Below are positions 4,708 to 19,546 of a stretch of DNA of 19,546 nucleotides, piece by piece. Source of the stretch: Oribacterium sp. UBA6992 (GTDB lineage: Bacteria; Bacillota; Clostridia; Lachnospirales; Lachnospiraceae); contig DJXY01000021.1 of assembly GCA_002449915.1 (NCBI GenBank), positions 1 through 19,546 of the forward strand. The letters run 5' to 3'. The position numbers were made by a program, and so were the translations under genes. Numbering within the stretch: the stretch's first letter is position 1; the number at the start of each line of letters is the position of its first letter. The notes under the pieces are model-generated. The model saw only the letters and a program-made list of their open reading frames with translations. It searched no databases and was not told the origin of the DNA.

Positions 4708-4748
4708 AGATATCGGTTTGCATGCCATGAAGCAATAACTCTGCTCCC

Positions 4749-4781
4749 ATGGTAAACTTTCCATACCAGAAAGTTTACCAT
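4749..4781. repeat. Perfect 13-bp inverted repeat downstream of leuS
   Basis: ATGGTAAACTTTC (4749-4761) and its exact complement (4769-4781) flank a 7-nt loop, CATACCA. There is no T-run on either strand, so it is unlikely to be an intrinsic terminator. It lies between the leuS stop and the leuS terminator. It could stabilise the mRNA 3' end or be a protein-binding site. Confidence 0.7.
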
Positions 4782-4811
4782 AATGATTTTAGTACAATAA
4801 TTTTGCAAGGA

Positions 4812-7229
4812 TCACTTCACAACAAAATTAAGGATCTTACCCGGAACATAGATCACCTTGACGATGGTCTTGCCCTCCAGGAAGCGGGAAATCACTTCAT
4901 CCTTCTCTGCTGTCTCTACAGCTTCATCTCTTGTGCAGTCTCTCGGCAGATCCACATTGCCTCTGACCTTGCCGTTCACCTGTACACCGATGTTAAGCAC
5001 CGCGTCCTTGGTCTTCTCCTCATCAAATTCCGGCCAGGCGGAAACAGTCAGGAAACCTTCGCCCCCGATCTGCTGCCAGATTTCCTCAGTGAGATGCGGT
5101 GCAAACGGGCTTAAGAGCTTGATAAAAGTTACAAGATCTTCCTTTGTAATAGAGCCTGCCTTGGTAAACTCATTGATCAGAGACATCAGTGCGGCAATTG
5201 CCGTATTAAATTTCATCTTCTCAATGTCTTCGCTTACCTTTTTAATCGTCTTATGTACCGAGGACTCAAGCTTTGGATCCTCCTTGTCTGCGTTTGCAAT
5301 CTCCGTCAGTCCCGCAACACGATCCAGGAATCTCTTACAGCCACGGACACTCTCATCGCTCCATGGTGCTGCTGCCGTGTAATCACTCATAAAGAGCACA
5401 TAGACTCTCAGCGTGTCAGCGCCATACTGGTCCACGATATCCATCGGGTCGATGACATTCCCTTTGGATTTCGACATCTTTTCACCGTCCGGTCCGAGGA
5501 TCAGTCCCTGATAGGTACGCTTGGCATATGGCTCCGGTGTGCCGACCTCGTTGATGTCATAGAGGAATCTGTGCCAGAATCTGGAGTAGAGGAGATGTCG
5601 TGTAACATGCTCCATACCACCGTTGTAATGGTCTACCGGCATCCAGTAATCCAGCTTCCTGCGATCGGCAAAGGCTTTATCATTGTGCGGATCACAGAAA
5701 CGGAGGAAGTACCATGAGGAACCAGCCCACTGCGGCATCGTGTCCGTTTCACGTTTTGCAGGACCGCCGCACTTCGGACATGTACAGTTAACAAAGGAGT
5801 CGATCTTGGCAAGCGGACTCTGTCCATCGGTACCCGGCTCAAAGTTATCAACATCCGGAAGCTCCAGCGGCAGCTCATTCTCCAGCACAGCTACGGTACC
5901 GCACTTCGGGCAGTGAATCAGCGGAATCGGCTCTCCCCAGTAACGCTGACGATTAAATGCCCAGTCCTTCATCTTATACTGCACGCCCTTGTGACCAATG
6001 CCCTGCTCCTTAAGGTACTCAAGCATGCGCGCAATGGAATCCTTTTTATTGGTAAAGCCGTTGAGGAAGCCGGAGTTAATCATTTCGCCGTCGCCTGTGT
6101 AGGCTTCCTTGGAAATGTCTCCGCCCTTGATGACCTGCACGATCTCTACGCCAAATGCCTTGGCAAAGTCATAGTCACGCTGATCATGTGCCGGTACTGC
6201 CATAATAGCACCGGTACCATATCCCATCATGACATAATCTGCGATAAAGACTGGAATCTGCTTGCCGGTGATCGGATTGATGGCAGTAAGACCCTCAACC
6301 TTGACACCAGTTTTATCCTTAACCAGCTGCGTTCTCTCAAACTCGGTCTTTTTAGCGCACTCTGCGCGATACTCTGTAATTTTATCCCAGTTGGAAATCT
6401 GGTCCTTGTACTTATCCAGTACCGGATGCTCCGGAGCCACAACCATAAAGGTAACGCCATACAGTGTATCACAGCGTGTGGTGTAGATTTCCATCTTGTC
6501 ACCTACAGCATGACCATCCTGATCCGCGAGCTGGAAATTAACAAAGGCACCGGTAGACTTGCCGATCCATGCCACCTGCTGCTGCTTGATGCTGTCCGGA
6601 TAGTCAACATGCTCAAGACCCTCCAGCAGCTTATCCGCATACTGGGTGATTCTGAGATACCAGACATCCTTTGGCAGCTGAATGACATCGCTATGACAGA
6701 TATCGCACTTGCCTCCCTGAGAATCCTCGTTAGAGAGCACGACTTTACAATGCGGACAGTAATTTACCAGGGTTTTAGCACGGAAGACAAGTCCATGTTC
6801 AAAAAGCTTAAGGAAGATCCACTGGGTCCACTTGTAATAATCCTTATGAGAGGTTGCAATCTCACGGCTCCAGTCAAAGGAGAAACCAACCTTCTCCATC
6901 TGGTCCTTGAAATGTGCGATATTTTTTTCGGTAATGATATGCGGGTGGGTATTGGTCTTGATTGCGTAGTTCTCCGCAGGCAGACCGAAAGAATCAAAGC
7001 CCATCGGAAAAAGGACATTGTATCCCTGCATTCTCCGCTTACGGGCGATGACCTCCACACTGGAATATGCCTTGATATGGCCTACATGCATGCCGACTCC
7101 GGACGGATACGGGAACTCTACCAGTCCATACCACTTCGGACGCGGGTCAAAATCCACAGCCTTAAAGATACCGGATTTCTCCCACTCAGCCTGCCACTTC
7201 GGTTCAATCTCTTTGAAATTATATTTCAT
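4812..7229 (-). CDS. leuS: Leucyl-tRNA synthetase
   Basis: 805-aa cytoplasmic class I aminoacyl-tRNA synthetase that charges tRNA-Leu. The length matches Bacillus-type LeuS. The HIGH motif appears as HVGH (48-51) and the KMSKS loop is intact (584-588). Cys pairs CPHC...CDIC and CPKC...CPKC suggest zinc-binding insertions. The CP1 editing region includes TTRCDTLYGVTF followed by GYGTGAIMAVPAHDQRD. The C-terminal anticodon-binding and tail regions end in VNGKVRGNVDLPRD and PGKILNFVVK. The ATG has GAGG about 8 nt upstream. A promoter at 7272-7299 leaves only about 35 nt of leader, so there is no T-box. It is a single-gene transcription unit closed by the terminator at 4664-4707. Confidence 0.98.
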   Translation of the reverse strand: MKYNFKEIEPKWQAEWEKSGIFKAVDFDPRPKWYGLVEFPYPSGVGMHVGHIKAYSSVEVIARKRRMQGYNVLFPMGFDSFGLPAENYAIKTNTHPHIITEKNIAHFKDQMEKVGFSFDWSREIATSHKDYYKWTQWIFLKLFEHGLVFRAKTLVNYCPHCKVVLSNEDSQGGKCDICHSDVIQLPKDVWYLRITQYADKLLEGLEHVDYPDSIKQQQVAWIGKSTGAFVNFQLADQDGHAVGDKMEIYTTRCDTLYGVTFMVVAPEHPVLDKYKDQISNWDKITEYRAECAKKTEFERTQLVKDKTGVKVEGLTAINPITGKQIPVFIADYVMMGYGTGAIMAVPAHDQRDYDFAKAFGVEIVQVIKGGDISKEAYTGDGEMINSGFLNGFTNKKDSIARMLEYLKEQGIGHKGVQYKMKDWAFNRQRYWGEPIPLIHCPKCGTVAVLENELPLELPDVDNFEPGTDGQSPLAKIDSFVNCTCPKCGGPAKRETDTMPQWAGSSWYFLRFCDPHNDKAFADRRKLDYWMPVDHYNGGMEHVTRHLLYSRFWHRFLYDINEVGTPEPYAKRTYQGLILGPDGEKMSKSKGNVIDPMDIVDQYGADTLRVYVLFMSDYTAAAPWSDESVRGCKRFLDRVAGLTEIANADKEDPKLESSVHKTIKKVSEDIEKMKFNTAIAALMSLINEFTKAGSITKEDLVTFIKLLSPFAPHLTEEIWQQIGGEGFLTVSAWPEFDEEKTKDAVLNIGVQVNGKVRGNVDLPRDCTRDEAVETAEKDEVISRFLEGKTIVKVIYVPGKILNFVVK

Positions 7230-7271
7230 ATCGATGCCTCGTTTTGCTGAAATCTGTTTTTTTACCGTCTT

Positions 7272-7299
7272 ATTATAGCAGAATAAGTCAAGACGTCAA
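7272..7299 (-). promoter_or_regulatory. leuS promoter
   Basis: Minus-strand -35 TTGACG (7294-7299), 16-nt spacer, perfect -10 TATAAT (7272-7277), about 43 nt before the leuS start codon. Confidence 0.75.
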
Positions 7300-7336
7300 A
7301 GTACAATGTGGAAAGGCAGCGATAACCAGAGGCTAC

Positions 7337-8149
7337 CTAGATCCAGCCTCCGTCCATGGTAATGATCTGTCCGGTGAGATAGGCAGGTGCCTTGGCAAGG
7401 AGGACAATCATCTCTGCTGCTTCCTCCGGCGTTGCCATCCTGCCATAGGGAATTTCTGCTTCGAGTGCCTCCCGCTCCTCCGGAGAGAGCCAGGCATTCA
7501 TATCGGTATCAACGCAGCCAAGCGCAAGCGCATTGACCGGGATATGATTTGGAGCAAGCTCCTTGCCAAGCGCCCGGGTAAAGGCATTGATTCCGCCCTT
7601 GGTCATGGAATATACAGACTCCATGGACGCGCCATCCTGTCCCCAGACGGAAGAAATATTGATCACAGCACCTTTCCCAACCTTCAAAAGATATGGAATC
7701 ATCGCCCGGGTTGTGCGGAACATCGTTTTTAAATTGGCATCGAGCATCTCCTCCAGCTCCGCGTCTGTCACCTCCTGTGCAAGGTGAAAGGTGGAGATAC
7801 CGCCATTATTAATAAGAAGCAGCTGGTCGGCGCTGTCCTCTGCAATGCGCGTGCGGCGTGCAAACGGGTCAGAAACATTCGCATACTCCTTAATATGATC
7901 CAGTGCCTCCTCACATACCGATGCAAAAGCATTGAGGTCGATTCCTAGATGTTTGCTTAGCACAGCCTCGTCAATCGGACCGTGAATTGCCGTAACCTCC
8001 GTCTGCTCCGCAAGTGCTGCCGCAACCTGATCCAGGGCGTCAAAGCGCGAGCGGCAGTTCAAAATCAGCCGCCAACCTTCCCGTGCCAATGCTTCCGCTG
8101 CGGCTCTCCCCACTCCTCTTGATGCTCCGGTTATCACTGCTGTTTTCAT
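7337..8149 (-). CDS. SDR family NAD(P)-dependent oxidoreductase (FabG-like)
   Basis: 270-aa classical short-chain dehydrogenase/reductase. The cofactor motif is TGASRGVG (7-14), NNGG (114-117) replaces the usual NNAG, and the catalytic set is N139, S167, Y180, K184 (YSMTK). The end, GQIITMDGGWI, is typical of FabG relatives. Compared with FabG there is extra sequence between the Rossmann strands (about 60-110, including KHLGIDLNAF...YANVSDPFARR), so substrate use beyond 3-oxoacyl-ACP is likely and unknown. I chose the ATG at 8149 because MKTAVITGASRG is the family N-terminus and GGGAAG precedes it; the frame extends to 8224 but would overlap the upstream gene. It lies 55 nt after the FtsL-like gene in a likely operon. 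A weak hairpin (7315-7337) overlaps the stop codon. Confidence 0.9.
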   Translation of the reverse strand: MKTAVITGASRGVGRAAAEALAREGWRLILNCRSRFDALDQVAAALAEQTEVTAIHGPIDEAVLSKHLGIDLNAFASVCEEALDHIKEYANVSDPFARRTRIAEDSADQLLLINNGGISTFHLAQEVTDAELEEMLDANLKTMFRTTRAMIPYLLKVGKGAVINISSVWGQDGASMESVYSMTKGGINAFTRALGKELAPNHIPVNALALGCVDTDMNAWLSPEEREALEAEIPYGRMATPEEAAEMIVLLAKAPAYLTGQIITMDGGWI

Positions 8150-8204
8150 AGATTTCTTCCCGTACTGCTTCCTCTTGAATCTTTTGGCTGCCTTTATTTC
8201 ATCA

Positions 8205-8726
8205 TCATTTCTCAGGGATCGCATCGTATTGTCTTACATAGCCCGGATCTTTTTTCTGATACTGAATCACCTGAGACTGATCCGCCGGCACCATGCCAAG
8301 CTCCTGCGTTGCAATCCGGTAGAGCTCCTTCTGGTCAATGGTGTGGTCAATGGATTGCTCGAGTGCATCATTTTCAAGCTTCATCTGCTCCAGCTGTTTC
8401 TGTTTCGATGCAATTGCATCCGCCCGGGATGCGATCTGCGTATTCATGTGCACGCAATAGTACCCGGATGCCATAATGAGTGTAAGACTTCCAATGAGCG
8501 CTGTTTTAAAAAACCACGCAAAAACTCTCTTCGGAATCGGTTTTAGAACAGGCGCTGCCTCTTTATGAGCTTCATGGACCTGCATCCGCATCTGACCGCT
8601 CCGAACATCTCGTGTAAGCTCAATTCGCTGTGCTCTGCCATGTTTATGGATGACCACCGTCTGCTTCTGTTCTGCGCCGAAATCAATCGCGCGTACCGTA
8701 TTTCCCTCAATGATCAGTCTTGCCAT
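8205..8726 (-). CDS. FtsL/DivIC-like septum formation protein
   Basis: 173-aa bitopic membrane protein. A cytoplasmic N-terminal part (about 1-68) is followed by one TM helix (about 70-92, AWFFKTALIGSLTLIMASGY), then an external heptad-like coiled coil (about 95-130, RADAIASKQKQLEQMKLEN...), then ELYRIATQELGMVPADQSQVIQYQ. This order and the A-x-x-E-L-G-M segment are typical of FtsL/DivIC septum initiators, which bridge FtsQ/DivIB and the septal synthase. Its neighbours are not the usual division cluster (no rsmH or penicillin-binding protein gene), so the exact paralogue is uncertain. The start at ATG 8726 has AGAGG 10 nt upstream. A long, foldable leader precedes it. Confidence 0.75.
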   Translation of the reverse strand: MARLIIEGNTVRAIDFGAEQKQTVVIHKHGRAQRIELTRDVRSGQMRMQVHEAHKEAAPVLKPIPKRVFAWFFKTALIGSLTLIMASGYYCVHMNTQIASRADAIASKQKQLEQMKLENDALEQSIDHTIDQKELYRIATQELGMVPADQSQVIQYQKKDPGYVRQYDAIPEK

Positions 8727-8762
8727 GCCCCATAAACCTCTGATTTCTGTACTATATTGAAT

Positions 8763-8893
8763 GCCTGATTTTATATAAGTAATGATGGATCAGGCTCTCT
8801 TTCAAATGTCAATTTTACGTATTTCCCAACGGACAGCTTAAAATGATAAAACTCATGTCCTGATCCATAAGTAACAATATTGCAGTTATTATA
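8763..8893 (-). promoter_or_regulatory. Candidate promoter and alternative-pairing leader of the FtsL-like gene
   Basis: A minus-strand -10 TATAAT (8888-8893) with a poor -35 would start a leader of about 155 nt. In it ATGGATCAGG (8868-8859) is the exact complement of CCTGATCCAT (8794-8785), enclosing about 64 nt with an inner GGACA/TGTCC stem (8860-8856 with 8835-8831). The same middle segment, as GCCTGAT (8795-8789), can instead pair with ATCAGGC (8769-8763). The two pairings exclude each other. No T-run follows, so control would be translational, or the elements are DNA operators. I do not recognise a known riboswitch class. Confidence 0.45.
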
Positions 8894-9079
8894 CACCAAA
8901 AGAGGGAATTAGAAATCAGCTTTTACAGAAAAATGCAATAGATTATTTTTATAGCGGTGTTTTCTTTTTTGCATCACCAAGGCACACTGTTTTATTTTTC
9001 AGAAAAGTGAAATTTCCAGAAGATCGTGATATGATGTACGAGTAGCTGATATGATTGTAAAATTGCGGACTGTAAAATT
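8894..9079. other. AT-rich divergent intergenic region
   Basis: Lies between the minus-strand ftsL-like leader and the plus-strand gene at 9080. The nonamer TGATATGAT occurs twice close to 9030-9056 and offers a possible -10 (TATGAT) for the plus-strand gene. I see no convincing -35 and no small gene. Confidence 0.35.
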
Positions 9080-9715
9080 ATGGATAATCAAAATAATCAA
9101 ATGATGGAAAAAGAAAAAACGCCGGAGAATCCTTTGTTTCATCGGGTTGACGCAGAGGGACATCTTTATTTTGAGGAACATCAGCCTCTGCATAACAAGC
9201 ACGAGAATGGTGACTATCAGGAGCTGGAGTCGCTCCGGATCGAGTACTCCAATGTGTTTGACCGGAGCAACAAGCTGGACAATAAGGTTTATATCATCAT
9301 TACCTTCTGTGGTTTCCTTTTTGTCTTCATTACCGGTCTTTTATCAAGCTTTACCAGCATCTCTTTTGCCGGAAGCCGTTTTAATAATGTAGTTACCATG
9401 CTTTATGTGTTGATGTGCATCGCGGTCATTATCTCCTATGTCTACATATTAATTTATCTCATGCAGCTGCTGGAGCCGGAGGGCATCAAGCGGATGGATC
9501 CGGAAAAGATGGAGCAGCTGAAGCTTGGAGAAATGTCCGAGGAAGCCGCTGTGCCGGAACTGATCCACCTGTACCGGGGCGTTGTCAACACCAATCTGGA
9601 GCGTCTGCACATCCGCTGTAACAAGCTCGTTGTGGGGCTTCGCTATGTGGTGCTGACCGTAATCCTTGCGTTTTCCGCCTATGCGATGCAGATTCTGCTG
9701 CGGCTGCAGCTCTGA
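9080..9715 (+). CDS. Three-TM membrane protein of unknown function
   Basis: 211-aa protein that I do not recognise as a named family. It has a polar N-terminus (about 1-66), TM1 (about 69-92), TM2 (about 103-129), a cytoplasmic-type acidic and helical stretch (about 130-184), and TM3 (about 185-208). The segment FDRSNKLDNKVYIIITF before TM1 and the helix NTNLERLHIRCNKLVVGLRY before TM3 give a layout similar to small membrane effectors of the SLATT or Pycsar-effector (DUF5706-like) type. This is shape similarity only, and no nucleotide cyclase, CD-NTase or SLOG gene is nearby. No good ribosome binding site is visible, so the start is uncertain (ATG also at codons 8 and 9). It is the only recognised plus-strand gene in the window and has its own terminator. 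Confidence 0.75.
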   Translation: MDNQNNQMMEKEKTPENPLFHRVDAEGHLYFEEHQPLHNKHENGDYQELESLRIEYSNVFDRSNKLDNKVYIIITFCGFLFVFITGLLSSFTSISFAGSRFNNVVTMLYVLMCIAVIISYVYILIYLMQLLEPEGIKRMDPEKMEQLKLGEMSEEAAVPELIHLYRGVVNTNLERLHIRCNKLVVGLRYVVLTVILAFSAYAMQILLRLQL

Positions 9716-9763
9716 TCGATGCTGAATCACTGCACTTGTCCAGCATGCTTGTCTATTGCTCTT

Positions 9764-9822
9764 ATCCCCCGTGCCAATCAAGACCAGCCCAGGCCAGGTT
9801 GATTTGCACGGGGGATCTTTTC
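9764..9822 (+). terminator. Intrinsic terminator, possibly used from both sides
   Basis: ATCCCCCGTGC (9764-9774) pairs with GCACGGGGGAT (9806-9816), and after one mismatch AATCAA pairs with TTGATT. CTTTTC follows on the plus strand. The permease gene ends 12 nt beyond it on the opposite strand, so the hairpin may also end that transcript although the minus side lacks a T-run. Confidence 0.75.
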
Positions 9823-9827
9823 ATCTC

Positions 9828-11258
9828 TCACTGTACATCCAGGTCCGCCCGGTCTCGTAACATATACTTCCGGAGCGGTGTCAATGAGGCAATCCAGTAA
9901 AGGAGTCCACCTGCTATGGCGGTATAGCCGCTGCCGGTCGTCAGCATAAAAAGGCTGCTTTTAATCGTACCGGTCGCCGGATTATAGACAAACACGATGG
10001 CAGTAATAAACGCGATCAGGAGACAACCAAGTCCCACAAGATTAAATCCCCCGGTAAAGCGATACGCGTCGTGTCCTTCCAGATAATACACACTCCGGAA
10101 GGAAAGGCGGCGCTTCTTGACAATCAGGTAATCCACAACCGTCATGCCGATGATCGGTCCCTGAATATATGCCGCGCAGGAAATAAAGGACCCGAAATGA
10201 TCCATAACCCAGCCCCAGATCGTCAAGGCGCTGACATAAAACATCGCGATAATTACGAGCGTACGATAGCGGATCTGCGGAAGCCCGCTTTTTACAATCA
10301 TGCAGTTCACATAGGAGCCGGTCCCCTGGGTACCGATATTTGCGAATGCTACCATCAGAAGGCTTAACAGGGAAAAGCCGGGACCTGCCAGTGCTGCCAG
10401 CATGGTTGTCGGATCACTCTCGTAATAGCCAAACTTCGCATACATGGCAAGCGCCATAATGCCACCAGCGGCAACAAAAAACGGTGCCACCATACCATAG
10501 GCAAGCGTTGTCGCCCAGTAGCCGCTGCGCTCGGTACGCGCAAGCCTCGGCATAACCAGTGCCTGTGTGGACCAGGAAAATGCAAATGCAACATTGCCCT
10601 CCGCAGACAGCATAAAGCGTCCAAGTGCCGTATCATAAAGACTGGTATCCGGCTGTACGGCATTGATTTCCGGCAGCGGCACGGAGGTAAAGCAGATAAT
10701 TACAACGATTACACCGACCGCAAGGAGGCATGTCACAAGGAAACGGTTGGTCCATTTGATGACTTCCGGACCACCCAAAGCAATCAAAGTGCCTAAGATT
10801 ACACACAGCACGCCAAGCAGCGGTTTCCAGAGCGAGGGATTCAGCTGCACACCAAAGCCTGCCACGAGATTAATCATCGATGATGCAAAAAGATTGGAGT
10901 CCACCGCATACCAGCCAAAATTTGCAAGACTGATCACTGTAGCAAGGATCGCCACTCCCTTGATGCCAAGGACTGACCGAAGCCAGATCCAGAGGTCAAT
11001 GCCGTAGCGCACGGCAAAAAGCACCGGGATACATTCAATCAGCACCCATACAATGTTAAAGCAGAAAATATTAATCAGCATCTGCCTGAAGCTCAGATAC
11101 TGCGCAACATATGCTCCCTGTGTATAACACCACGTGGCAATCGCAAAGCCGCTCGTAGAAAGAAAGAGATCCCAGAAGGAGTATTGTCTCTCTCCACGAA
11201 GCATCGGTACCGCTCCGGTGATAGTTTCCTGTTTTACATAATCCTTTTCCTGCCACAT
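9828..11258 (-). CDS. NCS1-family permease (cytosine/purine permease-like)
   Basis: 476-aa polytopic membrane protein with about 12 TM helices and the general pattern of nucleobase:cation symporter-1 (CodB-like) transporters: an early SFWDLFLSTSGFAIATW helix, ANFGWYAVDSNLFA in TM3, and SAEGNVAFAFSWSTQALVMPR. NCS1 members import nucleobases, hydantoins or vitamins by Na+ or H+ symport. I chose the ATG at 11258, whose A is also the last base of the TGA stop of the preceding small gene (TGATG), with GGGGG upstream; the frame opens 8 codons earlier without an SD. The location downstream of a LicC-LicA fusion raises choline or another amino-alcohol as a possible substrate. That is inference; ordinary cytosine-type uptake remains possible. 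Confidence 0.9.
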   Translation of the reverse strand: MWQEKDYVKQETITGAVPMLRGERQYSFWDLFLSTSGFAIATWCYTQGAYVAQYLSFRQMLINIFCFNIVWVLIECIPVLFAVRYGIDLWIWLRSVLGIKGVAILATVISLANFGWYAVDSNLFASSMINLVAGFGVQLNPSLWKPLLGVLCVILGTLIALGGPEVIKWTNRFLVTCLLAVGVIVVIICFTSVPLPEINAVQPDTSLYDTALGRFMLSAEGNVAFAFSWSTQALVMPRLARTERSGYWATTLAYGMVAPFFVAAGGIMALAMYAKFGYYESDPTTMLAALAGPGFSLLSLLMVAFANIGTQGTGSYVNCMIVKSGLPQIRYRTLVIIAMFYVSALTIWGWVMDHFGSFISCAAYIQGPIIGMTVVDYLIVKKRRLSFRSVYYLEGHDAYRFTGGFNLVGLGCLLIAFITAIVFVYNPATGTIKSSLFMLTTGSGYTAIAGGLLYWIASLTPLRKYMLRDRADLDVQ

Positions 11259-11440
11259 CACGCAATTACCCCCAGCATGCATAAAACAATCAGCACAATA
11301 CAGACGATCAGAAGTCCGACCATCATGATGACATCTTTCTGACCGATCGGAGCCGGAAACGGATAGTCCTTCCGTTCCATCTCCGTAATTCTTTTTGCGG
11401 TCTCCTCTTTTATAAGCTCCTCAATAGATTTTTCCTGCAT
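11258..11440 (-). CDS. 60-aa single-TM protein coupled to the permease
   Basis: Small protein with a charged amphipathic N-terminus (about 1-32, EKSIEELIKEETAKRITEMERK) and one strongly hydrophobic helix (about 37-59, DVIMMVGLLIVCIVLIVLCMLGVIA). It is real rather than chance: AAGGAG lies at ideal distance from its ATG, it sits in a 57-nt gap after the LicC-LicA gene, and its stop codon overlaps the permease start, which indicates translational coupling. It does not match a family I can name. The arrangement recalls small accessory subunits that precede some symporters, so a stabilising or regulatory partner of the NCS1 permease is the simplest reading. Topology would be cytoplasmic N-terminus with a single membrane span. 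Confidence 0.8.
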   Translation of the reverse strand: MQEKSIEELIKEETAKRITEMERKDYPFPAPIGQKDVIMMVGLLIVCIVLIVLCMLGVIA

Positions 11441-11497
11441 ACCTTTATCTCCTTAGAATAAAGCATTCTCATCCATATTCACGTCCCTGTGCATAGC

Positions 11498-13315
11498 TCA
11501 GGTTTCCTGTATGTCTGTATCCCTTGGTGCAGTTTCCCGGTCATCCATGCCCTGATATAGCCTGAGCGTACGTGCGCTATAGGCCTTCACGGATTTATAC
11601 CAGAGGTATTGCCATTCGCCGACAGGCTTCCCGACAGAGTCCTGATACAAGGACCAGACAAACCAGTAGTAAGACAGGATCGCAACATACGCGACATAGT
11701 GCCGGAACTCCGGAAGCTCCGGACGATAGCCGAGATATGCAGTAATCACCTCATCCGCCTGCTTCATATCATATGGAGAGCAGGCGATAAAGGTTCCAAG
11801 ATCACCTGCCGGATCCGCCATCCCGGAGTATTCCCAGTCGATAAGATACATCTTATTGTCATCATCCAGGAGGAAATTAGGGTTATAGCAGTCGCCATGA
11901 CAGAGGCATGCCGGGACCTGATCGCTGTCCGCAAGCGCACGGATCCTCGTGAGGTCCTCCCGGATCTGGTCGGCTCCCTCAAAATTCTGCCGTCCGCTTC
12001 TTGCAAGCGACTCGTAAAAGCCGTCAATCTGCTTCCAAAGATCAAATCGGTACTCCGTGCCGCCTCCCAGGGTGTGGAGCTTCCGGACCATCTTAAGTGC
12101 CTGAAGCACCTCTGCCTTATTGTTATAGTTAAGTAATCTCGCATGCTCGACAAAATGGGAAATTTTCCACCCCTTCTCCGGATCGATATAAATAAAAGTA
12201 TCATCCAGCCCGAGCTTTCTCGCGATTTCCATCGAAGCCGCCTCGCTCCGGCGGTTGATGTATTTTTCCGTACCGGGTCCCGGATGACGGTAGACAAAGG
12301 TCTCTTCTCCCACTCGGAAACGGAAGGAAACATTGGTAAGTCCGGTCTTGATCGGCACAATATTGCTTATGTCTTTGTCCTCGCAGTGCAGCACAGAATC
12401 GATATTACGGAAAATCTGAGAGTCGGTGTTTACAACATAATGCGCATCAAAGGTCCGGAGCTCATCCAGGGAATCAAACTCCTTGATTACCGTATCCGGA
12501 TATTTCCGTATGTAAAGATCCAGTTCCTTGATATGTCTCATATAGAGATTTTCCCAAAGCTGCGCACGGGTAACCGGGTCGTCATACGATTCCATCAGAA
12601 TCTTTCGGAATTTTGCGCTGAAGTCACGATCCCAGTACACATGCCCGAGCATATACCAGGCATCCGTTCCTCCTTCACTTACGCTGCGGATTCTGCCATC
12701 CTGGCGAATGCTTAGGCAATACTCATCCGTCGGTCCCACGGAATATACTGCCGAGTAATAGGAGCGGTAAACATACGGCTCAAAAACATTCTCCGTAAAA
12801 TAATTGTCCGAGGAGCAGATGTAGGTATTGTCCAGCCGATCCAGCACCTGCATCAGCGTGGACGTATTGTTATAGCGGTAATAGTCCTCATTCACCACGA
12901 TCTGCACATGAAGCTTGTCCGCAAGATAATACATCTTTTCCTTCATGTAACCCACAACGACGGTAATGTCCGTGATACCCGCCGCCTGGAGCTGCCGGAT
13001 TTCCCGCTCGATGAGGATCTCCCCCTTTACCTCAAGGAGCGCCTTGGGCTTCTCATAGGAGAGCGGTGCAAATCGCGTGCTCATACCGGCTGCCATAATG
13101 ATCGCATTATGCACCTTATACGGCTGCATGGTATCGATTCCCCGGGGTGTCACCCGGTTTGTATCATCCAAAAGTCCCTGCTCCTTCATCTCCTGCACCA
13201 GCCGGTTCACCTTGCCAAGTGCCATTTGGGTCCGGTCACTTAGCTCCCGCTGCGTATGCGGCTGACCGTCCATAAGCTGATATAAAAGCTTAAACTGTGA
13301 TTCCGAAATTGCCAT
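11498..13315 (-). CDS. Winged-helix / LicC-like cytidylyltransferase / LicA-like choline kinase fusion
   Basis: 605-aa three-part protein. Residues about 1-68 form a MarR-like winged helix (ISESQFKLLYQLMDG...TQRELSDRTQMALGKVNRLVQEM...). Residues about 70-300 are a sugar/choline nucleotidyltransferase with AAGMSTRF (75-82), KPK (89-91) and a catalytic Asp near 170 (SSDNYF). Residues about 315-590 are an aminoglycoside/choline-kinase fold with HGDCYNPN (473-480) and IDWEYSGMADPAGDLG (metal Asp near 493). LicA phosphorylates choline and LicC makes CDP-choline, so one chain could do both. The start at 13315 has AGGAAG upstream; the frame extends 55 codons further but that part overlaps a terminator. 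The substrate could be ethanolamine or another amino-alcohol instead. The helix may bind DNA or only act in oligomerisation. Confidence 0.9.
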   Translation of the reverse strand: MAISESQFKLLYQLMDGQPHTQRELSDRTQMALGKVNRLVQEMKEQGLLDDTNRVTPRGIDTMQPYKVHNAIIMAAGMSTRFAPLSYEKPKALLEVKGEILIEREIRQLQAAGITDITVVVGYMKEKMYYLADKLHVQIVVNEDYYRYNNTSTLMQVLDRLDNTYICSSDNYFTENVFEPYVYRSYYSAVYSVGPTDEYCLSIRQDGRIRSVSEGGTDAWYMLGHVYWDRDFSAKFRKILMESYDDPVTRAQLWENLYMRHIKELDLYIRKYPDTVIKEFDSLDELRTFDAHYVVNTDSQIFRNIDSVLHCEDKDISNIVPIKTGLTNVSFRFRVGEETFVYRHPGPGTEKYINRRSEAASMEIARKLGLDDTFIYIDPEKGWKISHFVEHARLLNYNNKAEVLQALKMVRKLHTLGGGTEYRFDLWKQIDGFYESLARSGRQNFEGADQIREDLTRIRALADSDQVPACLCHGDCYNPNFLLDDDNKMYLIDWEYSGMADPAGDLGTFIACSPYDMKQADEVITAYLGYRPELPEFRHYVAYVAILSYYWFVWSLYQDSVGKPVGEWQYLWYKSVKAYSARTLRLYQGMDDRETAPRDTDIQET

Positions 13316-13349
13316 AGCGTTTCTTCCTGTTTCGTTGATATTGTGATCG

Positions 13350-13381
13350 AAAAAAAATGGAGCCCGTAAACGAACTCCATT
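13350..13381 (-). terminator. Strong intrinsic terminator or attenuator before the LicC-LicA gene
   Basis: 11-bp stem (13356-13366 with 13371-13381, including two G-T pairs), loop of 4, then an eight-T run on the minus strand. It lies 132 nt after the YidC-fusion stop codon and only about 35 nt before the LicC-LicA start. A TATAAT (13379-13384) overlaps the stem edge. Either it ends the tag/YidC transcript, with a new promoter close by, or it is an attenuator controlling readthrough into the choline-activation genes. Confidence 0.85.
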
Positions 13382-13513
13382 ATAGCGCAGTACGCGTTCA
13401 TATTCTATATTTATCGCAAAATTTATGAACATAGCTCTGATGTAATTTGCTTGCATTCCATCAATACGGCAGTACATCAAAGCGTATCAAATTTCCGTTA
13501 GTCTCTCACATAC

Positions 13514-16270
13514 CTATTTCCAGCTGGAGCCTTCAACCTCCCAGTTATCGGGATCATAGATATCATCATGCACCGAATACCAGGTACCATCCGGGAATGT
13601 GTTGCCATGACTGTTCTGGATCAGGTTCTCCGTATACAGAATATGCTGCTTGCCCTCCTTAGCGCTTGCATCCGAGAGATCCGTGCCGGTATAAGGATTC
13701 ACCGGATTGGAAATCACATCCTTCGTTGCAAGATTTGCAATATCGCCAAGCGTCATAAAGGTCTGCCAGTCCTCCTTCAGTGCTCCGGACTGACCGAAAT
13801 CCTTGACCATCAGCATCGCATGAAAAAGTGTCGAGTCCTGCCCATCCGGGAGGATCAGATCGTCAAACGGATTCAGGATTCTTCCGTGATCCGACACGAT
13901 GATAATCCTTGTATTGTCATAGACTCCGGTTTCTTTTAAATACTCGATCCAGTCCGCCATCTTGAGAAACGCGGCAACATTCGCCTCATAATGAATCATC
14001 TGCTGCACATTGTCACAGTGGATCTTTCTGCCATTCACGGTAAAACGGTCCCGGTGCGCTGCGTCATACGCGGTATTGTCGATCTCCAGCGCAGGCTCAT
14101 ACTCCGGCTCCTTTAAAACCATCGGCTCATGTGTTGTCTCATTGGCAAACAGTATCAGATGATTGCTGTCATCCGATTCCTTCACCTTGGTCATATTTGC
14201 AAGATTCTGAAGCACCGTATAGCTATCCATAAACAGACTGTAAAAGCCTCTGGACTTATGCGCGTTGTAGATGGTTTCCCGCGCCGTATTGGCAGCATCC
14301 TCACTGCTGAGTCCCGCCTCATTATAATTACCGTCATTATACAAAAGTCCCTGCAGGGATACCGGCGCCACCTTCATTACGCTGTAACAGAAAAGATTCC
14401 GGGTATCGGCGCGTGTGATCTGCTTCCGGAAGCTCTCCGCATTATATCTGCCCTTTGTGATATAGGCATGCACATTGTCAAGATCATCATAGATTGAGAG
14501 ATCCGGAATCCATTTATAGCCGGCATAGGGCGGGTCACAAACGGTCACATCATAGCCATGCTCGCTGAACAGCCGCGGCATGACCTTCAATGCCTCATTC
14601 TGCTTTTTTTCAAGCGACTCATCGGCACGCGCATTGATTTTGTCCGGTGTGTAGTCATAGCCTCCAAACAGTGCTGGCGTACCTACATTGGTAAAGCCGC
14701 CATAGGAGATGGTATTGGCATAATAGGTAAAGCCGCTGAATATCTCGCGAAGCTGCGGCTCCTCTTTCAGCACATAGGGGAAATCTACGCTCAGTGCCCG
14801 GTCAAGCATAAAGACCACCACATTTTTGCCGGTTCTGCTGAACGGAAGCTCAACCTCCTCGTGCTTTGCCTGCTCGATCTGTGGCATCACACTGCGGATG
14901 GATTTCCGGATCTCCAAAATATTTCCAACCGACATAACCGTCAGCGCCGCACAGCCCGCGCAAAGCACCGGGATCACCAGCATTCGCAGTCTTTTATAGA
15001 TAAAGAGCAGCACAACCGCCAAGAGCAAAATGGCACCAAGATTTATGAGCTGCATGGAAACTGCATAGCTCACGCCATTGTCGTACTTGAGAAATGCGGA
15101 CATATTGCCGAGATCCGTACCAAAGAGCATATAGTCGAGCACCATAATGCCGGACAGCGCAAAAGCCAGAATCTCCATGTATTTTTTACCGGTATCGTTG
15201 GCAAGGGCGTAAAACACGCTGCACCAGACAAGGAAAAATCCTGCGGAGATTACAAATGCATTGATGATAAACCAGATCGGATTATGAAATGCATAGATGT
15301 TGTAAAACTCGTCCGGCGAAGAGCCGATGGTCGCGGAAGGAATAGCAAGTCCAATGAGCACCGTGATAAACAATGCCCCAGCAATATAAATTTTACGGTT
15401 CGGCACAAAGCTCCGGAGCTTTCCCGCAGCCCCAAGCTTCTTTCGGAGGATAAAAATAAAAACCGGCAGCAGCAGCGCAGCTCCGATAACCGCTGCCGCA
15501 AGCTCCTGCTCCTTGGATGGCATCGGTACCCGTACAATACGCAGTAAAATTCCAAGTCCCGTCAGTGCCGACAGGATACATAGCACAAGTCTCGGATGCT
15601 TCAGCTTATAAAAAATATTTTTAAGCAGGGAAAAGACATTGTTGAGCGTCCAATAAAAAACAAGTCCCGATGGCGACTGGTACAGAAATGCCAGGAAGAT
15701 CAATGCCATGGCATAGAGCTGCACCTTGCTTTTCCATGGGAAGCCTTTGGTATAAATGGCACCGGATATAAAATTGATCACTGTCATCAAGATCGGCAGA
15801 AGATTTACCGACATCCCCGCGATATGGATCAGTCCGTCGGGTGCGCCCAGATCCGGGATCGGTCCAAAAGCAAAGCCCTTAAGGAGACTGAGTCCGGACA
15901 AAAACTGATATGCCGCGATAAAAAATGGCACCTCCAAAAGCAGCGAAACCGAGCCCTTAAGCGCATCCGTCGGCTTATAGTCATTCTGCCGGTAATAGGT
16001 CTGAAGCATCATAAAGCGTTCATCCCCACGGAAGGTTTTGCGAATGTGCTCGACCCACGGGCGCATCCTTGCTTCCTGCGCTCTCTCCGCCTCCTGCATG
16101 GCATCGGCTCTCCGATACAGAGGCAGAACCAGGAAGTTCATGATCAGGCTCAGCACGATGATGGATAGCCCCGGGTTCTGTATAAGGTCATTGGCCCAAC
16201 TGTAAACCACCTCAAAAAACAACTCGAGCGGTCCAATCAGCAAATTATGAAGTAAGGTAAAAAAAGACAT
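13514..16270 (-). CDS. YidC/Oxa1-like domain fused to membrane-anchored sulfatase-like phosphotransferase
   Basis: 918-aa membrane protein. Residues 1-228 resemble YidC/Oxa1: TM1 (about 34-52), a cytoplasmic hairpin (about 55-110), LLEVPFFIAAYQFLSGLS, and the last TM with QSPSGLVFYWTLNNVFSLLKNIF. At the groove position where Gram-positive insertases have Arg, this protein has Asn (N45 in LSLIMNFLVLPL). Residues about 229-450 add several TM helices. Residues about 480-890 form an alkaline-phosphatase-superfamily (sulfatase/LTA-synthase type) domain with FMLD (D490), a probable nucleophile T531 (NVGTPALFGG), H714 and VSDHG (793-796). By family, such domains transfer glycerol phosphate or related groups onto surface polymers. 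AGAGGA precedes the start. The gene begins 31 nt after the TagF-like gene and is surely co-transcribed with it. Confidence 0.9.
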   Translation of the reverse strand: MSFFTLLHNLLIGPLELFFEVVYSWANDLIQNPGLSIIVLSLIMNFLVLPLYRRADAMQEAERAQEARMRPWVEHIRKTFRGDERFMMLQTYYRQNDYKPTDALKGSVSLLLEVPFFIAAYQFLSGLSLLKGFAFGPIPDLGAPDGLIHIAGMSVNLLPILMTVINFISGAIYTKGFPWKSKVQLYAMALIFLAFLYQSPSGLVFYWTLNNVFSLLKNIFYKLKHPRLVLCILSALTGLGILLRIVRVPMPSKEQELAAAVIGAALLLPVFIFILRKKLGAAGKLRSFVPNRKIYIAGALFITVLIGLAIPSATIGSSPDEFYNIYAFHNPIWFIINAFVISAGFFLVWCSVFYALANDTGKKYMEILAFALSGIMVLDYMLFGTDLGNMSAFLKYDNGVSYAVSMQLINLGAILLLAVVLLFIYKRLRMLVIPVLCAGCAALTVMSVGNILEIRKSIRSVMPQIEQAKHEEVELPFSRTGKNVVVFMLDRALSVDFPYVLKEEPQLREIFSGFTYYANTISYGGFTNVGTPALFGGYDYTPDKINARADESLEKKQNEALKVMPRLFSEHGYDVTVCDPPYAGYKWIPDLSIYDDLDNVHAYITKGRYNAESFRKQITRADTRNLFCYSVMKVAPVSLQGLLYNDGNYNEAGLSSEDAANTARETIYNAHKSRGFYSLFMDSYTVLQNLANMTKVKESDDSNHLILFANETTHEPMVLKEPEYEPALEIDNTAYDAAHRDRFTVNGRKIHCDNVQQMIHYEANVAAFLKMADWIEYLKETGVYDNTRIIIVSDHGRILNPFDDLILPDGQDSTLFHAMLMVKDFGQSGALKEDWQTFMTLGDIANLATKDVISNPVNPYTGTDLSDASAKEGKQHILYTENLIQNSHGNTFPDGTWYSVHDDIYDPDNWEVEGSSWK

Positions 16271-16301
16271 TGAAACGATCCTCTTGTCCTGTTTGTAAAT
16301 A

Positions 16302-17528
16302 CTAGCTATAGAGCTGCTGCTGCTTTTTTATAAGATACTCCGCCACATTTTCGGCGCCATGCCCCCGGCACTGCCACGCTTCGTCTCTCGCCTGTCTCCG
16401 GGCTTCCGCAAAATGCTGGTCCTCGAGGCACTGGTCAATGCGTACTTTCATATCATTAAGATCCTCCTCCCGGAGCGGCATACCGATTTTGGGAAGTACT
16501 GTAAATGTCCAGGTTTCGTCCTTAAGCCAGCAGCAGTCATAGGGTGCCTTGTCATATGCCGTCTCGGTATAGATTACCGGCTTGTCATAAACCAATGTAA
16601 AATCAAATATGACGCCGGAAAAATCCGAAATCAGGAGATCCGCCCGCCGGAGAACCTCAAAATTATCATTGTCCCGGTTCCATTCAAGCCAGCTGCTCTC
16701 GGGATACTCCTGCATGAGCTTCTCCATCTGCTCCTTCTCTGATATGAAGGACTGGGGATGCGGGCGGACAATGATGTGATAGCCTGTCTTATGCAGGGCA
16801 TCGATAATTCTGCCACCAAAACGACTGAATATGGCGCTCTTACCCCAGGACGGTGCCAGCAGCACCGTACGCTCATGCGGCGGAAGCGGTGGTGCCGCCT
16901 CGAGACGCTTTGCCATAATATCCAAATACGGAAGTCCGACCACACAGGTCTCCTTCGCCGGCAGCTTCCGAACCGCCTCCAGCGCGCGGACCTGATCAAT
17001 CTGATACTGTCCCGTCGTGAGAATCGCATCATAGTAATCAATGCCAAACATCCGGTACATAGTGATATCCGATGCTGCATGCGGGATATGTACGTACCAG
17101 TCCACATCCTTGGAGCGTTTCCACTGGTACACATCCAGCCCCGGTGTCGAGGAAAGCACGATGCCGGCATTCAAAAGGTTCAGCTTTGCAAAGGTACGGT
17201 TACCGGCACCTGTGTACTGGCACTCGATATATTGATACTGCTTTTTAAATGCAGGATCATCCTCCGAAGCTGTCATATAAACAAGTTTCGTCTTCCGTTT
17301 CTCAAATTCATCACATATCGGCTCAAAAAGATTCCAGTAGCGTTTACTGTCCGTAAAAATAACGATGGGGATTTTGTTTTTGCTGACCTTCTCCTGCTTA
17401 CCGCCGCTCAGACGGAACCTAAGCTTCATCACAAGGTTTCGGACAGCATAGAAACCGGCGCCAGCCACTCCGATCAGAATGGTAAACAGCATACTGCCGG
17501 TACCCGGATCAATATATAAATAATGCAT
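16302..17528 (-). CDS. CDP-glycerol glycerophosphotransferase family protein (TagF/TagB-like)
   Basis: 408-aa transferase of the poly(glycerophosphate) family (PF04464 type), which moves glycerol phosphate from CDP-glycerol to a lipid-linked or polymer acceptor at the inner face of the membrane. A hydrophobic N-terminal segment (MHYLYIDPGTGSMLFTILIG, then AGAGFYAVRNLV) anchors it. The catalytic part has HIPHAASDI, GLPYLD, LLAPSWG, the VRPHPQSF motif and ISDFSGVIFDFTLVYDKPVIY near the end, all typical of TagB/TagF. GGAGG lies 4 nt before the ATG, slightly close. It is the first gene of the surface-polymer locus and has a candidate promoter at 17590-17617. The acceptor (teichoic acid, LTA or another glycan) is not shown by the sequence. 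Confidence 0.9.
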   Translation of the reverse strand: MHYLYIDPGTGSMLFTILIGVAGAGFYAVRNLVMKLRFRLSGGKQEKVSKNKIPIVIFTDSKRYWNLFEPICDEFEKRKTKLVYMTASEDDPAFKKQYQYIECQYTGAGNRTFAKLNLLNAGIVLSSTPGLDVYQWKRSKDVDWYVHIPHAASDITMYRMFGIDYYDAILTTGQYQIDQVRALEAVRKLPAKETCVVGLPYLDIMAKRLEAAPPLPPHERTVLLAPSWGKSAIFSRFGGRIIDALHKTGYHIIVRPHPQSFISEKEQMEKLMQEYPESSWLEWNRDNDNFEVLRRADLLISDFSGVIFDFTLVYDKPVIYTETAYDKAPYDCCWLKDETWTFTVLPKIGMPLREEDLNDMKVRIDQCLEDQHFAEARRQARDEAWQCRGHGAENVAEYLIKKQQQLYS

Positions 17529-17686
17529 AAATCCTCCCGATCTATGGATTCGTAAATTTCCTTAAATCTGATTATCAAAAAACGGCTTTATCATACCATA
17601 ATTTAAAAAGATTTAACATGGAATTCCTATGGAATATGGCTGGAAGATAGCGATGATCCGGATACCCGGATGCTTGGTGCCGGGAT
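17529..17686 (-). promoter_or_regulatory. Promoter region of the surface-polymer locus
   Basis: Minus-strand -10 TATGAT (17590-17595), 16-nt spacer, -35 GTTAAA (17612-17617), about 60 nt before the TagF-like start. Further upstream a short inverted repeat ATCCGG/CCGGAT lies near 17656-17671. The region is otherwise AT-rich without a gene. Confidence 0.5.
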
Positions 17687-17722
17687 AGAAAAAAAGCACC
17701 GGAATGTAACTTCCGATGCTTT
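17687..17722 (-). terminator. Intrinsic terminator of tRNA-Gly
   Basis: AAAGCACCGGAA (17693-17704) pairs with TTCCGATGCTTT (17711-17722) with one mismatch. The minus strand continues with a T-run. It begins 8 nt after the tRNA 3' end. Confidence 0.85.
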
Positions 17723-17729
17723 ACACTGA

Positions 17730-17801
17730 AGCGCGAGACGGGAATCGGACCCGCGACCTTCTCCTTGGCAAGGAGACGTAGTACCACTCTACTACTCGCG
17801 C
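17730..17801 (-). tRNA. tRNA-Gly (anticodon GCC)
   Basis: Full cloverleaf on the minus strand: acceptor GCGCGAG/CTCGCGC, D-stem GTAG/CTAC, anticodon stem TCTCC/GGAGA with loop TTGCCAA (anticodon GCC), variable loop AGGTC, and T-arm GCGGG/CCCGT with loop TCCGATT. The CCA end is not encoded (discriminator T followed by TCA), so it is added by nucleotidyltransferase. The gene has its own consensus promoter and terminator. Confidence 0.95.
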
Positions 17802-17804
17802 ACT

Positions 17805-17834
17805 CTTTTGTTCGGTGATTCATGCGAACAAAAG
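17805..17834 (-). repeat. Perfect 10-bp hairpin in the tRNA-Gly 5' leader
   Basis: CTTTTGTTCG (17805-17814) and CGAACAAAAG (17825-17834) flank a 10-nt loop and end three nucleotides before the mature tRNA 5' end. With the promoter at 17837-17865 the transcript should begin near 17830, so most of the leader is this hairpin. It could affect RNase P processing or protect the precursor. Confidence 0.6.
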
Positions 17835-17836
17835 GG

Positions 17837-17865
17837 ATTATACCTAAGGGTCAATAGATTGTCAA
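17837..17865 (-). promoter_or_regulatory. tRNA-Gly promoter
   Basis: Perfect consensus on the minus strand: TTGACA (17860-17865), 17-nt spacer, TATAAT (17837-17842), as expected for a strongly expressed stable RNA. Confidence 0.9.
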
Positions 17866-17871
17866 GCTGCA

Positions 17872-17916
17872 ATTTAAAAGTCCGTCTGATTATCCTTGAC
17901 CATTTCCAGACGGGAC
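17872..17916 (-). terminator. Probable intrinsic terminator of pncB
   Basis: On the minus strand GTC-C-CGTCTG pairs with CAGACGGAC with one bulged base (17907-17916 with 17880-17888) around an 18-nt loop, followed by TTTTAAATT. It begins 23 nt after the pncB stop codon and overlaps the upstream flank of the tRNA-Gly promoter. Confidence 0.65.
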
Positions 17917-17938
17917 ATCGGCTCCGCATTGCCAATGA

Positions 17939-19408
17939 TCATTTCCGCTTCCGGTACTTGCCTCCATGCGCCAGCATATCCATCTTCATTTCATAATAGT
18001 CCGGCGTCATATCGACATAATGGCGGTGCGGATTCTCAAAGCGCTGCTCCTCGTCCCAGATCTCATGCTGCAGCTGATCCTTGACATACGCTGCGATCTG
18101 CTTCACCGACACCTCCGCGCCTGTGCGCTGGCCATCCTTCATCACGAGCTGCTGCAGCTTCCTTGCAGTACAGTGCTCAAAGCTCCGCACCTTCCACGGC
18201 TTCTCCGGATCCACAAAGCGATATGGTTTGGAGAGATCGATCTCCTCGCCCTTTTCCGCGATCAGGTCCGCAATCGCTCTGCCCTCCTCATTGTAAATCC
18301 GATACACTTCCTTGATACCCGGATTTGTGATTTTTTCCACACTTTCAGATACCTTAATGCGGGGAATCATCTCTCCATCCTCCTCTACGGCACAGAGCTT
18401 ATAAACCGCTCCAAAAACCGGCTCGGACTTGGATGTGATCAGGCGTTCACCTACGCCAAAAGCATTCACCTGACCACCCTGGGCAAGGATCGAAGTAATT
18501 GTGGCCTCATCCAGACTGTTGGAGATGACGATTTTAGCATCCGGGAAGCCTGCTGCATCCAGCCGCTTCCGTGTTTCCTTGGTAAGATATGCAAGGTCGC
18601 CGGAATCAATCCGGATGCCAAAGCCTTTAGAGTGAATCCCTGCATCCCGCATCTCTTTAAAGACCTGAATTGCATTTGGAAGCCCGGAATCCAGTACATC
18701 ATAGGTATCAATCAGCAGGATACAGTTATCCGGATAGATTTTTGCAAATTTCCGAAATGCCGTAAGCTCGTCATTATAGTACATAACCCAGCTATGCGCC
18801 ATAGTACCGCCGACCGGGATATCAAAGTACTGACCGGCGGAAACCGTAGCTGTACTGCCGACACCCCCGATCACTGCTGCTCTCGCACCATAGATCGCTG
18901 CATCATTGTTGTGAGCACGGCGGGCACCGAAATCCGATACCGCTCTTCCTCCTGCGGCACGGACAATACGGCTTGCTTTGGTTGCGATGAGACTCTGATG
19001 GTTCACCTGCGCAAGAATTTCCGTCTCCACAAGCTGCGCCTCCACGAGATTGGCAACTACCGTCAGGATCGGCTCTCCCGGATACATGACGCTGCCTTCC
19101 GGAAAGGCGTATACATCTCCATGGAAATGAAAGGCAGAGAGCCAGATAAGGAATCTCTCATCAAACAGTTTCAAACTCCTGAGGTACGCGATGTCCTCCT
19201 CGGAAAAATGCATATCCTCGAGGTATTCCAGTACCTGCTCCAATCCGGCAAAGATAGAGAAGCCTCCCTCATCCGGGTTTTTACGGTAAAAAACATCAAA
19301 GGCCACCTTGGCATCGGTATTTTCTTCAAGGAAATAGCCATTGGCCATGGTCAGTTCATAGAGATCCATCATCATGGATATGTTGCGCTTGTCATTGATT
19401 CTGTTCAT
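17939..19408 (-). CDS. pncB: Nicotinate phosphoribosyltransferase
   Basis: 489-aa enzyme of NAD salvage (Preiss-Handler route) that converts nicotinate, PRPP and ATP to nicotinate mononucleotide in the cytoplasm. The family N-terminus is evident (MMMDLYELTMANGYF, then FDVFYRKNPDEGGFSIFAGLEQ), as are the substrate-binding SDFGARRAH segment, H205 in GGTMAHSWVM (the autophosphorylated His of the family) and the DSGDLAYLTKETRKRLDAAG phosphate-binding region. Length is normal. The C-terminal extension (about 400-489), with YVDMTPDYYEMK, is typical of the long Gram-positive form. The ATG has AAGGA 8 nt upstream. It is a single-gene unit, with a promoter close upstream and a terminator just after it. 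Confidence 0.97.
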   Translation of the reverse strand: MNRINDKRNISMMMDLYELTMANGYFLEENTDAKVAFDVFYRKNPDEGGFSIFAGLEQVLEYLEDMHFSEEDIAYLRSLKLFDERFLIWLSAFHFHGDVYAFPEGSVMYPGEPILTVVANLVEAQLVETEILAQVNHQSLIATKASRIVRAAGGRAVSDFGARRAHNNDAAIYGARAAVIGGVGSTATVSAGQYFDIPVGGTMAHSWVMYYNDELTAFRKFAKIYPDNCILLIDTYDVLDSGLPNAIQVFKEMRDAGIHSKGFGIRIDSGDLAYLTKETRKRLDAAGFPDAKIVISNSLDEATITSILAQGGQVNAFGVGERLITSKSEPVFGAVYKLCAVEEDGEMIPRIKVSESVEKITNPGIKEVYRIYNEEGRAIADLIAEKGEEIDLSKPYRFVDPEKPWKVRSFEHCTARKLQQLVMKDGQRTGAEVSVKQIAAYVKDQLQHEIWDEEQRFENPHRHYVDMTPDYYEMKMDMLAHGGKYRKRK

Positions 19409-19471
19409 CTTATGTCCTTCTTCCGCATCATTAAGACGTACCGCGCACTCCCCGGCACATGAATAGCTATT

Positions 19472-19500
19472 ATTATACTATGCTTTGCCGAGATTATGTT
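19472..19500 (-). promoter_or_regulatory. pncB promoter
   Basis: A perfect -10 TATAAT (19472-19477) on the minus strand, about 64 nt before the start codon. The -35 is poor (AACATA at 17-nt spacing), so this may be an activator-dependent or weak promoter. No NadR-type or NrtR-type operator was recognised. Confidence 0.5.
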
Positions 19501-19546
19501 AAAAAAATGCCACGGAAAATGAAGTTTCCCTCATATCTCCGCGGCA
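19501..19546 (-). terminator. Intrinsic terminator of the gene upstream of pncB
   Basis: TGCCGCGGA (19546-19538) pairs with TCCGTGGCA (19516-19508) on the minus strand, with an inner ATGA/TCAT stem and a following seven-T run (19507-19501). It ends a minus-strand gene that lies beyond the right edge of the window. Confidence 0.85.

Follow-up and report, generated by a model that had tools for sequence, protein, structure and literature searches.

A YidC/Oxa1-like domain fused to a lipoteichoic-acid-synthase-like phosphotransferase in Clostridia, a candidate conduit for transmembrane head-group transfer

YidC is the textbook membrane protein insertase. E. coli YidC is described as scrambling phospholipids in vitro, and Bacillus MisCB as doing so in simulation (PMC10491306). 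Transferases of the alkaline phosphatase (AP) superfamily use phospholipid head groups, and phosphatidylcholine is suggested as the donor of PptA (PMC10434233). Here we describe a gene that joins relatives of both protein types in one chain. It lies in a stretch of 19,546 nucleotides from Oribacterium sp. UBA6992 (Lachnospiraceae; assembly GCA_002449915.1, 72.8% complete; contig DJXY01000021.1, positions 1-19,546 of the forward strand), and "the window" hereafter means this whole stretch. The reading that we favour, with confidence falling just short of even, is that the fusion makes up one half, that in the membrane and beyond it, of a two-protein machine for head-group transfer across the membrane, in which a lipid intermediate would pass through the YidC-like domain as a conduit. 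The gene and its parts are as follows.

13514..16270 (including the stop codon), minus strand: YidC-LTA-synthase (LTAS)-like fusion gene (type A; LTA, lipoteichoic acid), 918 amino acids, a single uninterrupted open reading frame (ORF) of 918 codons
15596..16270, minus strand: YidC/Oxa1-like domain, residues 1-225 (Pfam, YidC matches in the PDB, structure model, loop charges)
16136..16138, minus strand: codon of N45, where ordinary YidC has its basic groove residue (alignments)
14837..15595, minus strand: residues 226-478, linker and membrane helices (model, VIA-align)
13517..14836, minus strand: sulfatase/LTA-synthase-fold catalytic domain, residues 479-918, expected to be extracellular
14690..14692, minus strand: codon of T527, the likely nucleophile (conservation and model)

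The first-pass annotation of this DNA had proposed a YidC/Oxa1-like domain fused to an LTA-synthase-like phosphotransferase with extra transmembrane (TM) helices, and the ORF, Pfam and a structure model all confirmed this architecture. PF02096 (60KD_IMP) matched residues 34-221 with 82.1 bits against a cut-off of 35 (E 5.9e-23), the NCBIfam model yidC_oxa1_cterm (TIGR03592) scored 80.8 bits, just under its cut-off of 84.3, and Pfam Sulfatase matched residues 645-801 (28.1 bits, cut-off 25). In the AlphaFold2 model (pLDDT 91.6, pTM 0.87), the YidC-like domain has five TM helices, with a helical hairpin at residues 55-103 that is expected on the cytosolic side, and seven additional TM helices separate it from the catalytic domain, namely two linking helices (226-247 and 253-279) and five across 292-470. 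These five occupy the same place as the membrane part of PbgA and MCR-1 in VIA-align; since the corresponding rows, 6xlp over residues 283-916 and 9nww over 286-871, gave root-mean-square deviations of 15.1 and 14.1, the comparison is limited to helix arrangement. A fold search with the full model returned mainly catalytic-domain matches and was thus uninformative on the YidC part. Judging from helix count and loop charges, the catalytic domain is expected outside the cell, provided that the N terminus, like that of YidC, faces outward; inspection of the sequence by eye revealed neither a signal peptide nor a lipid-anchor cysteine. A frame artefact was ruled out, as there is one open frame and the best 120 homologues span 906-943 residues.

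We then examined the residue at the hydrophilic groove, where the first-pass annotation had seen a conserved Arg replaced. In the phmmer alignment, N45 falls opposite an Arg of E. coli YidC, which we take to be R366. Position 45 is N in the query and all of its 120 best hits (121/121), in 88 of the 89 rows of an alignment of the family (A2; S in the remaining one) and in 12 of 14 diverse type A members, the two exceptions being Q in both members of one genome (G157). Because uncharged N or Q occupies the site throughout the members sampled, the loss of groove charge is, on alignment evidence, a family-wide trait of type A. The replacement thus held, whereas the premise of a fixed Arg was too strong: among 24 ordinary YidCs from related genomes, the site is R in 15, K in 7 and Y in 2, and the last two likewise lack a basic groove residue. 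The host keeps a separate ordinary YidC on another contig (C94), with R in the groove. The window protein has no mid-helix Arg or Lys in its YidC helices, and no alternative groove Arg was found within them; the R at position 122 of 24 of the 89 members lies about half a turn off the E113 face by helix counting and is probably off the groove. The type A groove is lined by N45, an invariant N166 and position 113 (E in 61 and Q in 28 of 89), and, lacking a basic residue, it could accommodate the head group of a lipid no less readily than the acidic tail of a peptide.

The catalytic domain has the sulfatase fold, metal ligands and Thr nucleophile that mark an AP-superfamily phosphotransferase. 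D490, H714 and the D794 and H795 of the SDHG motif, singled out earlier, are indeed invariant among the 121 proteins and the 89 rows of A2. T531, named with them, is T in only 45 of 121 proteins (A 42, S 17, V 14) and in 28 of 89 rows, and we discarded it as the nucleophile. Conserved instead is T527, which is T in 121/121 proteins, in 89/89 rows and in 22/22 rows of an alignment that spans both fusion arrangements (see below) and includes three LTAS-like relatives without YidC; it is the sole invariant Thr common to the fusion family and these relatives, and it starts a helix (527-536) in the model. On this conservation, T527 is likely to be the nucleophile. D490, H714, D794 and H795 are also invariant in the 22 rows. 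No NCBIfam LTA-synthase or other sulfatase-type model matched the fusion at E <= 0.01.

The fusion gene is accompanied by a second gene, encoding the presumptive cytosolic partner.

16302..17528, minus strand: PF04464 transferase with a TagF-like fold and an N-terminal YIDPGTGSMLF segment, 408 amino acids, 31 bases upstream of the fusion

The partner scores above the PF04464 cut-off, and its YIDPGTGS segment is an N-terminal membrane segment; YIDP opens 23/23 aligned type A partners. Counts over loci are approximate, with locus genes called by a longest-ORF rule, neighbour clusters formed by BLAST linkage and few members checked with Pfam. On this basis, the two genes are adjacent in 69 of 83 loci, with a median gap of 2 bases (65/69 within 150 bases), and they share a strand in 73/73 copies. 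In a survey of 293 genomes, 11 had a full-length fusion and ten a full-length partner, each of these ten being one of the 11. Immediately 5' of the partner gene, the window has a 12/12 match to a sigma-70-type promoter, a tRNA-Gly(gcc) and a terminator-like hairpin (17693-17865, minus strand).

Phmmer with the fusion scored 7999 candidates and returned 5170 proteins at E <= 1e-3, of which the best 120 were examined; the tail may hold other proteins. These 120 share 48-99% identity over 98-100% of the query, and each has PF02096, so that the halves are fused in 120/120. At least 591 stretches in named genomes were examined, 555 of which encode a relative, and 79 loci were retained, mostly from Lachnospiraceae, Oscillospiraceae and other Clostridia, together with Schwartzia succinivorans and a metagenome-assembled genome of Eggerthellaceae. 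Presence across genomes is patchy: the full-length fusion was found in 3 of 61 genomes, the host included, and the matches in ten further genomes were YidC genes. Only the best few candidates per genome were scored in these surveys (3 and 6 in the 293-genome survey). The host assembly, incomplete as it is, gave no PF00884 or PF04464 match beyond this locus. Tandem fusion copies are common, and one locus (L068) holds seven fusion-family ORFs, some partial, within 20.8 kb. As for separate halves, 72 of 121 proteins compared (120 short YidC-type hits and P0258) align to the query past residue 235, and the remaining short hits stop before it or have unmatched tails of at most 135 residues; these are probably cut or frame-shifted copies, although some may truly be stand-alone forms. 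Among the 120 best rows of a search with the C-terminal part, all have PF02096 except P0258 (673 amino acids), which aligns from query residue 249 and may be a cut copy or truly YidC-less. Neither a mobile-element nor a defence context emerged: seven plasmid and four phage records matched, none over more than 24% of the query and all within the YidC part, and PADLOC gave no match for the fusion or partner and two weak matches for a winged helix-turn-helix (wHTH) region of a neighbouring gene, licCA.

This distribution bears on one alternative, a general-purpose second YidC fused by chance to a surface enzyme. The YidC homology is clear, as such a protein would have it. The groove residue is nevertheless replaced, the halves are fused in the best 120 homologues, and the gene is sporadic, occurs in tandem arrays of up to seven ORFs and coexists with a separate YidC, and we regard this explanation as highly improbable.

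The strongest evidence in our analysis came from a second arrangement of these modules, reciprocal to the first. Four genomes of the 293-genome survey (G180, G233, G259 and G340) encode proteins of at least 632 residues in which YidC is fused to PF04464 instead, with the N-terminal YidC domain confirmed by Pfam in 4/4.

L104, 10048-12180, minus strand: YidC-PF04464 fusion
L105, 6791-8695, plus strand: YidC-PF04464 fusion
L106, 6556-8964, minus strand: YidC-PF04464 fusion
L107, 7444-9342, plus strand: YidC-PF04464 fusion
L105 8695-8961, L106 near 11172, L107 near 13794 and L104 near 9913: YIDP-motif segments

A YidC-less LTAS-like gene lies near the reciprocal fusion in three of the four loci, and two of the three products exceed the Pfam Sulfatase cut-off. 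A YIDP membrane segment is present in the fetched stretch of all four: in G180 it forms the N terminus of the LTAS-like protein, and G233, G259 and G340 encode it in small ORFs of its own. The modules are thus partitioned as [YIDP-PF04464]+[YidC-LTAS], as [YidC-PF04464]+[YIDP]+[LTAS] or as [YidC-PF04464]+[YIDP-LTAS], and this recurrence of the same four modules in different partitions suggests that they work as one cross-membrane complex. The YidC domains of each arrangement form their own clade (100/100), and a joint clade of both was not rejected (approximately unbiased test, p-AU 0.25), so a single origin with later re-fusion is possible.

The reciprocal fusion is stronger evidence for repurposing of the YidC fold than N45. 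The earlier idea that the fold serves something other than general protein insertion was partly supported, by the loss of groove charge, the separate YidC, the joined halves of the best 120 homologues and the pairing with PF04464. A different use of the fold would be as a dedicated insertase or chaperone that inserts or holds the YIDP segment and the helix bundle and thereby lets the enzymes on the two sides of the membrane assemble into one complex. This would account for the presence of a YIDP segment alongside the other modules at each of the four reciprocal loci and at the start of every aligned type A partner, for the hairpin retained after the first core helix in the fusion model, and for the YW pair in the final helix of the YidC domain, which is kept without exception in 14 type A proteins, 4 reciprocal fusions and 24 ordinary YidCs. 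On the other hand, the basic groove residue is lost in type A, the host has a separate YidC, and a private insertase would hardly be needed for one short TM segment. We consider this explanation a serious rival to a conduit, if an unlikely one.

Returning to the conduit, the observed architecture, conservation, partnership and module swapping, and an enzyme assigned by homology to CDP-choline synthesis, lead us to infer a lipid intermediate, its passage through the YidC-like domain, the substrates and the acceptor. Inside the cell, a LicC-LicA-type enzyme would yield CDP-choline at the window locus, and CMP-activated phosphonates would serve at some other loci. The PF04464 partner, held at the membrane by its YIDPGTGS segment, would shift the phospho-head group of the CMP-linked donor to a membrane lipid or lipid-linked acceptor. 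With a CMP-donor transferase in the cytosol and, outside, an enzyme of a class that uses lipid head groups, that lipid would have to cross the membrane, and the YidC-like domain, with a groove devoid of basic residues (N45, N166, E/Q113), would let its head group through. Finally, the sulfatase-fold domain would take the head group on T527 and hand it on to a glycan or protein at the cell surface. The first-pass suggestion of a domain that holds or moves a lipid-linked polymer comes close to this reading, except that a lipid with a single head group suits the neighbours equally. The fuller claim, that the YidC fold is a dedicated conduit for a lipid with a phosphocholine- or phosphonate-type head group, and that a single relay, which needs neither LicD nor a classical flippase, exists in two fusion arrangements, is possible and rather doubtful.

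The donor side of this scheme draws on genes downstream of the fusion.

11498..13315, minus strand: licCA, encoding wHTH, LicC-type CTP:phosphocholine cytidylyltransferase and LicA-type choline kinase in one protein (PDB matches)
9828..11282, minus strand: NCS1-type permease (PF02133, Pfam)

The licCA ORF opens at 13480, the ATG at 13315 being the likelier start, and its protein matches LicC (1jyk, E 6.2e-37) and LicA (4r77, E 1e-25); by homology, its product would make CDP-choline. Of the 83 loci, 30 have a LicC/LicA-type cluster, of which Pfam was run on two members, and 13 have a LicB-like EamA transporter, of which it was run on one. The NCS1 permease, a possible importer of choline or another amino alcohol, clusters in three of 83 loci, the window and two others that also have the LicC/LicA-type cluster. 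Phosphonate genes, namely a phosphoenolpyruvate (PEP) mutase-cytidylyltransferase and a thiamine-pyrophosphate-dependent decarboxylase, are found in three of 83 loci, with a 2-aminoethylphosphonate-type transaminase in one, and phosphonate activation genes are also present at G157. Cytidylyl activation of 2-aminoethylphosphonate serves the cell surface, as described in PMC6697681. At one reciprocal locus (L107 of G259, 9332-13647), phosphonate activation genes and an iron alcohol dehydrogenase stand beside the YidC-PF04464 fusion and might yield hydroxyethylphosphonate.

These neighbours also bear on a second serious rival, in which an LTA-synthase-like enzyme acts on outer-leaflet phosphatidylglycerol, the partner primes or extends a glycerol-phosphate polymer from CDP-glycerol, and YidC is merely an anchor or scaffold. 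The TagF-like fold of the partner would fit such a role; by sequence, its sole PDB match is the TagF-like polymerase Cps3D (E 8.9e-6). Against it, no NCBIfam LTA-synthase model matched at the threshold given above, choline- and phosphonate-activating genes recur near the locus (CDP-glycerol genes themselves were not searched for), and the YidC domain is conserved beyond the apparent need of an anchor: A2 has 58 invariant columns, of which 26 fall in the first 225 residues. We judge this explanation improbable as well.

Several observations weigh against our own reading. The LicC/LicA-type cluster is absent from the fetched stretch of 53 of 83 loci, two of which (L074 and L082) have PEP mutase, and CDP-choline is therefore not a universal donor, other donors being possible. 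A LicD-type gene is present in three of 83 loci; none lies at the window locus, and the sole LicD-family match of the incomplete host assembly, on contig C212 (1700-2416), could consume the CDP-choline instead. A terminator-like hairpin with a T run (13381-13356, minus strand) lies between the fusion and licCA, and the two may therefore be separate transcripts; such sites number 13 against 8.2 expected. The partner is missing from 14 of 83 loci (four of them with less than 500 bases on one side), genome G265 has the fusion and no partner match, and UDP-GlcNAc epimerases fit the fold of the partner as well as TagF does. Among the reciprocal loci, the LTAS-like protein of L106 reaches 18.5 bits against the Sulfatase cut-off of 25, although it matches the family profile and retains the catalytic residues; no LTAS-like gene was recognised within 17 kb at L107; and the bare YIDP pattern, in the scan that gave these segments, also matched two unrelated frames. 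All four reciprocal fusions have K at the groove site, so that loss of charge is not required for such a machine.

Elsewhere in the window, one ORF joins a FeoA domain ahead of FeoB (2037-4517, minus strand).

No paper describing a YidC-LTAS or YidC-PF04464 fusion was found, by title or opening of the abstract, among the papers listed in a literature search whose coverage mostly excludes subscription journals. At least 120 natural proteins couple the domain of a textbook insertase to phospho-head-group chemistry, and the window locus sets LicC and LicA homologues next to an enzyme of the superfamily of PptA. If our reading is true, they would provide a transmembrane route to phosphocholine or phosphonate surface decoration that requires neither LicD nor a classical flippase, and a donor route for such decoration in gut and rumen Clostridia. 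The family would also be a natural test of the proposal (PMC10491306) that insertases move lipids as well.

Compared with the YidC/Oxa1/Alb3 insertases (Bacillus YidC2, 3wo6; E. coli YidC, 3wvf), the fusion shares PF02096, the five-helix core, the hairpin and the YW motif, whereas it differs in its N/Q groove residue, its attached phosphotransferase and its coexistence with a separate YidC. With LtaS (2w5q), LtaP (4uop), MCR-1 (9nww) and PbgA (6xlp) it has in common the sulfatase fold, the five preceding helices and the metal and nucleophile residues; unlike LTA synthase, EptA and PbgA-type enzymes, to which it is 12-16% identical in the aligned VIA-align rows, it carries a YidC domain and two helices in front. 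The partner resembles the CDP-alcohol transferases TagF, TagB and TarL in PF04464 and fold, and departs from them in being short, in bearing the YIDPGTGS segment and in being tied to the fusion gene. Like the Lic-1 phosphocholine pathway, the locus has LicC and LicA homologues, downstream of the fusion, and LicB-like EamA proteins occur at some related loci; here, in contrast, LicC and LicA are joined with a wHTH, an NCS1 permease stands in place of LicB, and LicD is absent from the locus. MprF likewise combines a lipid-head-group enzyme and a lipid mover in one protein, with an unrelated fold and lipid.
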